Source: Acidovorax carolinensis
Lineage (GTDB): Bacteria > Pseudomonadota > Gammaproteobacteria > Burkholderiales > Burkholderiaceae_C
Direction of reading: 5' to 3'
DNA length: 64,000 nucleotides
NCBI RefSeq assembly: GCF_002157145.1
Contig: NZ_CP021361.1
Span: 1,798,001 to 1,862,000, forward strand
How positions within the stretch are numbered: position 1 is the first letter of the stretch; each line of letters opens with the position of its first letter. Shown piece by piece: positions 12,069-13,463 of the stretch. Made by a program: the position numbers and the translations under genes. Under the pieces are notes generated by a model that had not been told where the DNA came from, ran no database searches, and was given only the letters and a program-made list of their open reading frames with translations.

Positions 12069-13463
12069 ATGCAGTTGCAGCAAGACGAGCACTGGATGCG
12101 CCAGGCACTGGCCCAGGCCCAGGCCGCCGCATTGGCGGGCGAAGTGCCGGTGGGGGCGGTGGTGGTGAAGGACGGCCAGGTGATTGCCACCGGCCGCAAC
12201 GCCCCGGTGTCGGGGCACGACCCCACCGCGCACGCTGAAATCGTGGCGCTGCGCGCCGCGGCGCGGCAGCTGGGCAACTACCGGCTTGATGGCTGCACGC
12301 TTTACGTCACGCTGGAACCCTGCGCCATGTGCAGCGGCGCCATGCTGCATGCGCGCGTGCCGCGCGTGGTGTTTGGCGCAACCGACCCCAAGACCGGCGC
12401 CGCGGGTTCGGTGCTCAACCTGTTCAGGCATGCCGAGCTCAATCACCACACCGAGGTGCATGGCGGGGTGCTCGCACACGATTGCGGCGCGCTGCTAAGT
12501 GCGTTTTTCCGCCACCGGCGCACCCAGCAACGCGCCCAGGCGCTGGCAAGCCACCCGCTGCGCGACGACGCCCTTCGCACGCCCGACGTGGCCTTTGTCA
12601 GTCTGCCCGACTACCCCTGGGCGCCGCACTACACCAGCGACCTGCCCAGCCTGGCGGGTCTGCGCATGCACTATCTGGACGAGGGGCCCTCTTCGCAGGC
12701 GCCGCGCACCTGGCTGTGCCTGCACGGCAACCCGAGCTGGAGCTATCTTTACCGCCGCATGATCCCCGTGTTTCTGGCGGCGGGAGACCGCGTGGTGGCG
12801 CCTGACCTGATTGGTTTTGGCAAGAGCGACAAGCCCAAGAAAGACAGTTTTCACCAGTTCGCATGGCACCGGCAGGTGCTGCTGGAGCTGATCAACCGGC
12901 TGGATCTGCGCAACACGGTGCTGGTGGTGCAGGGTGCGGGGGGCATGCTGGGCCTGACCTTGCCCATGGCCATGCCCGAGCGCTTTACGGGCCTGCTGGC
13001 CATGAACACCTTGCTGGCCACGGGCGATGCACCGCTGCCACCCGGCTTGGTGGCGTGGCGCGCGATGTCTGCCAAAAAACCGCTCTACAGCGTCGCGCGC
13101 CTGCTGGCACGTGGCAACCCCCATCTGCGCGATGAGGAATGCGCCGCTTACGACGCGCCGTTTCCCGACCGCGGCTACCGTGCCGGGCTGCGCGCCTTTC
13201 CGGCGCTGGTGCCCGGTCATCCGGACGCCGAGGGCGCTGCCGTTTCGCGGACAGCGCGTGGCTTCTGGCAGCACGAATGGCAGGGGCGCAGCCTGATGGT
13301 GGTGGGCGCGCAGGACCCGGTTCTGGGCATGCCTGTCATGCAGGCGTTGCAGCGCAACATTCGGGGCTGCCCGCCACCCATGGTGCTGCCCCACGCAGGA
13401 CACTTCGTGCCGGAGCATGGCCAGGCGATTGCCGCGCAGGCTGTGGAATACTTCTCATCCTGA
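12069..13463 (+). CDS. tadA: Fusion: tRNA adenosine(34) deaminase TadA plus haloalkane-dehalogenase-like alpha/beta hydrolase lacking the nucleophile
   Basis: A 464-residue two-domain protein. Residues 1-160 are a full TadA, which converts A34 to inosine in tRNA-Arg(ACG); zinc and catalytic residues are intact (H55-A-E57, then PCAMC with C85 and C88). Residues 169-464 align along their whole length with the DhlA class of haloalkane dehalogenases (RTPD start, LHGNPSWSYLYRRMIPVF, FGKSDKP, LDLRN, YDAPFPD, final AGHF). The catalytic acid D416 and H445 remain, but the nucleophile Asp of the VVQDW motif is Gly289 and the halide-binding Trp is Ala290. Dehalogenation by the known mechanism is therefore impossible. 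The ribosome site is weak and lies inside or next to the repeat. The role of the second domain is unknown. Confidence 0.88.
   Translation: MQLQQDEHWMRQALAQAQAAALAGEVPVGAVVVKDGQVIATGRNAPVSGHDPTAHAEIVALRAAARQLGNYRLDGCTLYVTLEPCAMCSGAMLHARVPRVVFGATDPKTGAAGSVLNLFRHAELNHHTEVHGGVLAHDCGALLSAFFRHRRTQQRAQALASHPLRDDALRTPDVAFVSLPDYPWAPHYTSDLPSLAGLRMHYLDEGPSSQAPRTWLCLHGNPSWSYLYRRMIPVFLAAGDRVVAPDLIGFGKSDKPKKDSFHQFAWHRQVLLELINRLDLRNTVLVVQGAGGMLGLTLPMAMPERFTGLLAMNTLLATGDAPLPPGLVAWRAMSAKKPLYSVARLLARGNPHLRDEECAAYDAPFPDRGYRAGLRAFPALVPGHPDAEGAAVSRTARGFWQHEWQGRSLMVVGAQDPVLGMPVMQALQRNIRGCPPPMVLPHAGHFVPEHGQAIAAQAVEYFSS

Follow-up and report, generated by a model that had tools for sequence, protein, structure and literature searches.

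The window analysed here, a 64,000 nucleotide stretch of Acidovorax carolinensis DNA (contig NZ_CP021361.1, positions 1,798,001 to 1,862,000 of the forward strand), encodes a protein in which the tRNA-editing deaminase TadA is fused to a haloalkane dehalogenase-like domain of the DhlA class. The overall best explanation is the capture of a dehalogenase, which probably became a non-catalytic accessory domain of TadA; the non-catalytic exaptation itself is well supported by comparison and appears likely. Matches at E <= 1e-40 were found in 383 of the 399 genomes of the family survey. The census drew on 150 genomes, close to one per genus, of which 139 contained a TadA match (one each) and eleven had none at this threshold. 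Fused proteins were distinguished in 82 of the 139 genomes and plain TadAs in 57, with 112 genomes read and 27 of the 57 plain ones judged solely by an open frame of less than 270 amino acids. The nucleophile Asp, the catalytic acid and the His are retained in 34 of the 82 fusions, three lack the nucleophile alone and 45 lack the acid or the His, the loss by which the decayed class is defined.

The features of the fusion are given below, with frequencies for intact fusions (n = 67), decayed fusions (n = 71), standalone dehalogenases (n = 84) and a set of close proteins made up of the window protein plus the 120 homologues that match it best (n = 121); dN/dS is the ratio of non-synonymous to synonymous substitution rates.

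12069..13463, forward strand: coding sequence of the TadA-dehalogenase fusion, 464 amino acids; matched at E <= 1e-80 in 47/47 genomes of the genus, its own included
12069..12548, forward strand: TadA domain (residues 1-160), above the NF008113 cut-off; zinc/catalytic site H55, E57, C85 and C88, invariant in 177/177 aligned TadA open reading frames (ORFs)
12555..12584, forward strand: junction motif PLRDDALRTP (residues 163-172) with fusion-specific P163, R165 and D167; R165 frequency 0.94 in intact, 0.97 in decayed and 0.01 in standalone proteins
12567..13457, forward strand: haloalkane dehalogenase-like domain (HLD-I, DhlA class; residues 167-463)
12723..12734, forward strand: HGNP (residues 219-222), oxyanion/halide loop, Asn221 aligning with Glu in DhlA; Asn in 63/67 intact fusions
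12804..12842, forward strand: DLIGFGKSDKPKK (residues 246-258) with the fusion-specific basic pair K257-K258; decayed versus standalone frequencies 1.00 and 0.04 for K257, 0.76 and 0.01 for K258
12930..12944, forward strand: presumed dead nucleophile elbow QGAGG (residues 288-292), Asp replaced by Gly289 and Trp by Ala290
13056..13058, forward strand: Trp330, second halide-binding Trp, kept; 121/121 close proteins
13158..13199, forward strand: PFPDRGYRAGLRAF (residues 364-377), kept in decayed tails (P364 0.96, P366 0.92, D367 0.90, G369 0.96); dN/dS 0.22 in ten decayed pairs
13314..13316, forward strand: Asp416, catalytic acid, kept in the window protein; 121/121 close proteins, 4/71 decayed
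13401..13403, forward strand: His445, catalytic base, kept in the window protein; 121/121 close proteins, 3/71 decayed

The nucleophile is nearly always gone as well in the 45 census fusions without acid or His, and the cap is often deleted. Many decayed tails comprise 186-250 residues past TadA position 150, compared with approximately 314 in full-length tails, and the thirty plain TadAs read in the census extend 18-67 residues past this position. For example, a decayed query matched proteins of Alicycliphilus denitrificans (P0243; 358 amino acids) and Acidovorax sp. JHL-9 (P0289; 364 amino acids, where the match to the dehalogenase model ends at residue 287), while a Diaphorobacter protein (P0261; 378 amino acids) is classed as decayed by length only. 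The motifs PLRxDALRTP, GFGxSDKPKK and PFPDxGxRA are kept in the decayed tails, with many positions at frequencies of 0.9-1.0. This retention bears on a scenario in which an active dehalogenase or related hydrolase rides on TadA in the intact lineages and is lost with its substrate, the leftover tail being slowly decaying baggage. Such a bifunctional enzyme would be in keeping with the Asp, acid and His of the 34 sampled fusions, with one decayed tail shortened by a stop (L163), and with dN/dS values of 0.18-0.27 over the catalytic half of intact fusions (29 pairs, on average more diverged than the ten decayed pairs; Nei-Gojobori estimates without codon-bias correction). However, baggage should show far more stops, frameshifts and blurred motifs in the 45 decayed genomes than the high conservation at many positions indicates, and the fusion-specific basic residues are left unexplained, making this scenario unlikely. 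Two observations on individual tails can be added. In L190 and L234 (G138) the decayed tail is enlarged, with 431 residues past TadA position 150, and LREDALR, GHGLSDKP and PYPDAG are kept, while the fusions L098 and L099 have Asp, acid and His together with HDDG at the nucleophile elbow and no halide Trp.

The TadA domain of the window protein scores 220.8 bits against NF008113 (cut-off 150). It is the single TadA-like match at E <= 1e-40 in its genome, which also contains an ARAGORN-called tRNA-Arg(acg) gene (L318). In these respects and in its complete zinc site it resembles the TadA enzymes of E. coli (1z3a) and S. aureus (2b3j), from which it differs in carrying an extra domain of approximately 300 residues. 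The anticodon arm of tRNA-Arg(ACG) has another match approximately 3 kb from the called gene (L317; G000:C1:3305512-3305542), where ARAGORN calls no tRNA. The extra domain matches the HLD-I profile and shares the fold over its whole length with DhlA (1b6g), DppA (2xt0) and DpaA (7avr), along with the catalytic acid and His and the second halide Trp. It differs from them in the absence of the nucleophile Asp and the adjacent first halide-binding Trp, in a Lys-Lys pair after SDKP and in its fusion to TadA, and very probably has no dehalogenase activity. The initial annotation, which had described a complete TadA and a DhlA-class domain with Asp416 and His445 in one ORF, Gly289-Ala290 in place of Asp-Trp, and a structurally conserved but probably dehalogenase-dead partner, is borne out by profile, fold and alignment. 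Among the matches listed for this genome (three of five), a 40 % deaminase match and a 29 % hydrolase match were the only ones besides the fusion when a DhlA-like backup was sought. The possibility that an assembly error or a frameshift had artificially merged two genes, which had been raised as a refutation, has in its favour the unusual architecture and a frame break in the fusion of one other genome (L112); it is rejected as a negligible prospect given 147 distinct fused ORFs, several of them on multi-megabase single contigs, and the fused frame is genuine.

The Gly-Ala replacement is not a trait of the TadA-hydrolase pairing, as the initial annotation had supposed it might be. Of the 121 close proteins, 108 have Asp and thirteen have Gly at residue 289; at residue 290 there are 109 with Trp, six with Ala and six with Gly, and the pair Gly-Ala or Gly-Gly occurs in twelve. 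Proteins L002, L004 and L005, with 85-89 % identity to the window protein, carry Gly-Ala or Gly-Gly, while Asp-Trp is kept in L003 (88 %) and L006 (84 %). As most close proteins keep Asp and near relatives differ, the nucleophile loss is, on this comparison, recent and local to a small Acidovorax species group and no property of the fusion. The expectation that homologues keeping Asp-Trp would reveal one recent mutation thus held in part: such homologues occur across the broad family, but the change is more than a stray mutation, with Gly in 13/121 proteins from several species, and is one among many losses in the family. Together with L002-L006 and the shortened L151 and L152, the window protein makes up a TadA group of eight (support 99.5), within which branching is too weak to tell one nucleophile loss from several. 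In this species group Asp416, His445 and Trp330 might serve a new catalytic or binding function at the Gly-Ala site, given that all three residues are kept, that catalytic-half dN/dS is approximately 0.21-0.22 and that twelve close proteins have Gly-Ala or Gly-Gly. Against this, most of residues 295-360 and the acid/His region are gone in L151 and L152 (85 % identity to the window protein over residues 1-294 and 83 % over 1-291, respectively), which belong to the same genus and group. The site is therefore dispensable in the next relatives, and a new activity is highly improbable here; the suggested catalysis of another reaction by the His and Asp still present is likewise unlikely for the family, in which 45/82 sampled fusions lack the acid or His.

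The frequency of triad loss was assessed on trees of TadA ORFs picked non-randomly from the matches (178, with 19 near-identical ones dropped); L182, L189 and L192 fell outside the ORF filter for this set and are counted in the census. On a quick tree of the 178 ORFs there are 25 changes between intact and lost among the fused rows, and the thirty plain rows form one group, with L190 counted as a decayed tail. A fuller search (177 rows) likewise placed the thirty plain rows on one side of one branch (support 71). With loss treated as irreversible, the triad was lost 35 times on the fuller tree, falling to 28, eight and four after collapsing branches with support below 80, 90 and 95, and 32 times on the quick tree, falling to 17, five and three at the same cut-offs. 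Parallel loss is thus likely, although its number is uncertain. These trees are unrooted and the quick versions are rough. When 17 TadAs of other families were added, constraining the fused rows of the family to one clade yielded a tree that improved on the free quick search, which had missed it, by 101 log units (approximately unbiased (AU) test, p-AU 0.902). This would fit a tail that was gained once, with no subsequent reversion to plain TadA.

Intact and decayed tails share P163, R165, D167, K257, K258, G369 and A376, which are mostly absent from the standalone dehalogenases. The latter were mostly obtained from one scan (at least 80 matches) with patterns requiring QDWGG or the acid region, so that the values of 1.00 for nucleophile and acid in this set follow from how it was assembled; R165, K257, K258 and H262 played no part in their selection. 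At residues 257-258 the V/A-D/E of standalone dehalogenases is replaced by K-K in the fusions, and the net charge of residues 241-268 is +2.57 in intact and +2.51 in decayed fusions, as opposed to -0.21 in standalone proteins (residues 160-286: +0.21, +0.23 and -3.31, respectively). The one decayed tail that was modelled (L058) has a confidently predicted miniature alpha/beta-hydrolase fold. Short strands occur in both models at residues 168-169 and 255-256 (254-255 in L058), and these presumably pair, which would bring R165 close to K257-K258. As the basic residues are fusion-specific, contact with tRNA-Arg(ACG), or the positioning of TadA on it, is the most likely role of the patch, and specific tRNA contact is proposed tentatively, at somewhat less than even probability. 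The initial annotation had also suggested tRNA binding, on other grounds than this basic patch. The main competing explanation is that the tail adds nothing new and that the folding, solubility or dimer shape of TadA has come to depend on it while the catalytic parts decay neutrally. Many of the kept residues are common to standalone dehalogenases, the mini-domain of one protein is predicted to be well folded and the plain TadAs form one group with no scattered reversals in the sample, all as such dependence would predict. It is nevertheless considered rather unlikely, with R165, D167, K257 and K258 specific to the fusions and the D/E to K charge reversal at residue 258 needless for the folding of a dehalogenase. 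A further difference lies within TadA, where residue 45 (12195-12206 in the window for residues 43-46) is Ala in 123/147 fused and Arg in 30/30 plain ORFs; this residue, which we take to be equivalent to Arg47 of E. coli TadA, is a weak lead and is not relied on. It was set aside since the R47Q and R47M variants are reported to lose little or no RNA editing (PMC6506237).

The gene downstream of the fusion is shared by plain and fused loci:

13417..14511, forward strand: LD-carboxypeptidase family (S66) gene (Pfam PF17676/PF02016); listed ORF, the true start probably lying later

A relative of this gene adjoins tadA in 29/30 plain, 64/67 intact and 73/81 lost loci and, as the same downstream gene is found beside plain and fused tadA, the dehalogenase most simply would have entered between tadA and ldcA. 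The accessory-domain explanation would thus begin with a DhlA-class gene landing there in the ancestor of a large clade within the Acidovorax family (Comamonadaceae) and being read through as the C-terminal domain of TadA. The domain would then have turned into a non-catalytic accessory part, with selection keeping the fold, the TadA junction and a basic patch (R165, K255, K257, K258 and nearby residues), so that catalysis was dispensable and was repeatedly lost. Losses may have proceeded from the nucleophile alone, as in the window, to the acid, His and cap in other lineages and finally to a mini-domain of approximately 200 residues, with the patch contacting tRNA-Arg(ACG) or positioning or stabilising TadA on it. 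The fusion, the scatter of the losses, the persistence of the remainder of the tail in the sample, the pattern of constraint, the predicted folds and the residues specific to fusions are observations, whereas a direction from intact to lost, the succession of steps, exaptation and the tRNA role are deduced from them. Slightly more tentative than the tRNA contact itself is the wider proposal that many lineages in parallel turned a captured detoxifying hydrolase into a non-catalytic tRNA-recognition module, with living species at successive stages (intact-looking, Gly-Ala and mini-domains); the window protein would be an early stage of this conversion.

In the hydrolase-domain tree the fusions of the family (26 rows) group with the standalone proteins L110, L111 and L235 (support 98). 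The fusions of a second fused family, f3 (L096 and L212-L214), are set with one standalone row (95), and their nearest relative by path is L240 of Noviherbaspirillum. A second, independent fusion is likely, although a single fusion was not rejected in an AU test on this tree (p 0.112). No unfused neighbour stage was observed: in the named standalone set, only L301 and L310 (the latter an intact fusion of Curvibacter delicatus), which are fused, have a TadA match in their stretch. In the f3 fusions the PLR motif is absent and KP(V/A)D resembles the standalone form.

Several observations weigh against a selected accessory domain. Truncation does occur, as the tail of L163 (G127) ends at a stop around residue 262, just after its SDKP motif GFGRSDKPKRESFH, and is the shortest among the fused genomes; in a few decayed tails the motifs can no longer be recognised, L097 having none. 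The low acid and His frequencies in the decayed class are partly a product of its definition by their loss. Trees built on 160 TadA columns resolve little, with few losses required at support 95, and the plain group could be one reversal since the root is not inferred. Most kept residues (including G249, S253, D254, K255 and P256) are common to standalone enzymes, such that folding alone may explain them, and the fusion-typical H262 occurs also in the standalone proteins most closely related to the fusions (L110, L111 and L235). Furthermore, fusions carry a net charge of only about zero over residues 160-286 as a whole, the models contain no complex and do not show where the patch lies with respect to the active site of TadA (pTM 0.69-0.70), and f3 keeps Asp-Trp and lacks the R165/K257/K258 patch.

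Pseudoenzyme domains in general lose catalytic residues and retain their fold; the fusions differ in that, within one bacterial family and on a tRNA-editing enzyme, they span a gradation running from active-looking domains to mini-domains. For a C-terminal extension of S. pyogenes TadA the authors of PMC11472039 propose a possible tRNA role, and no hydrolase-derived domain is described in the available part of that paper. No paper describing a TadA-dehalogenase fusion was found in the open-licence full-text literature, a scope that leaves subscription journals mostly outside, and PMC12255301 contained no match to the six terms looked for. In one family, and in part in a single genus, the fusions form a naturally occurring gradient in which an enzyme domain gives up catalysis but stays joined to a housekeeping protein, which makes the transition from enzyme to accessory domain of an RNA enzyme directly testable. 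The annotation of fused proteins as haloalkane dehalogenases is not evidence of dehalogenation, and TadA engineers gain a naturally extended enzyme, predicted to deaminate, to examine.

Some individual loci deviate from the common architecture. In L112 (G356; approximately 1657-2980) TadA (query 29-130) and the remainder (132-462) lie in different frames, pointing to a frameshift or sequencing error there. L271 appeared fused at first look only and was rejected as a fusion. The open frames of L027 and L053 reach 896 and 1043 amino acids, respectively, with a long open stretch ahead of the fusion.
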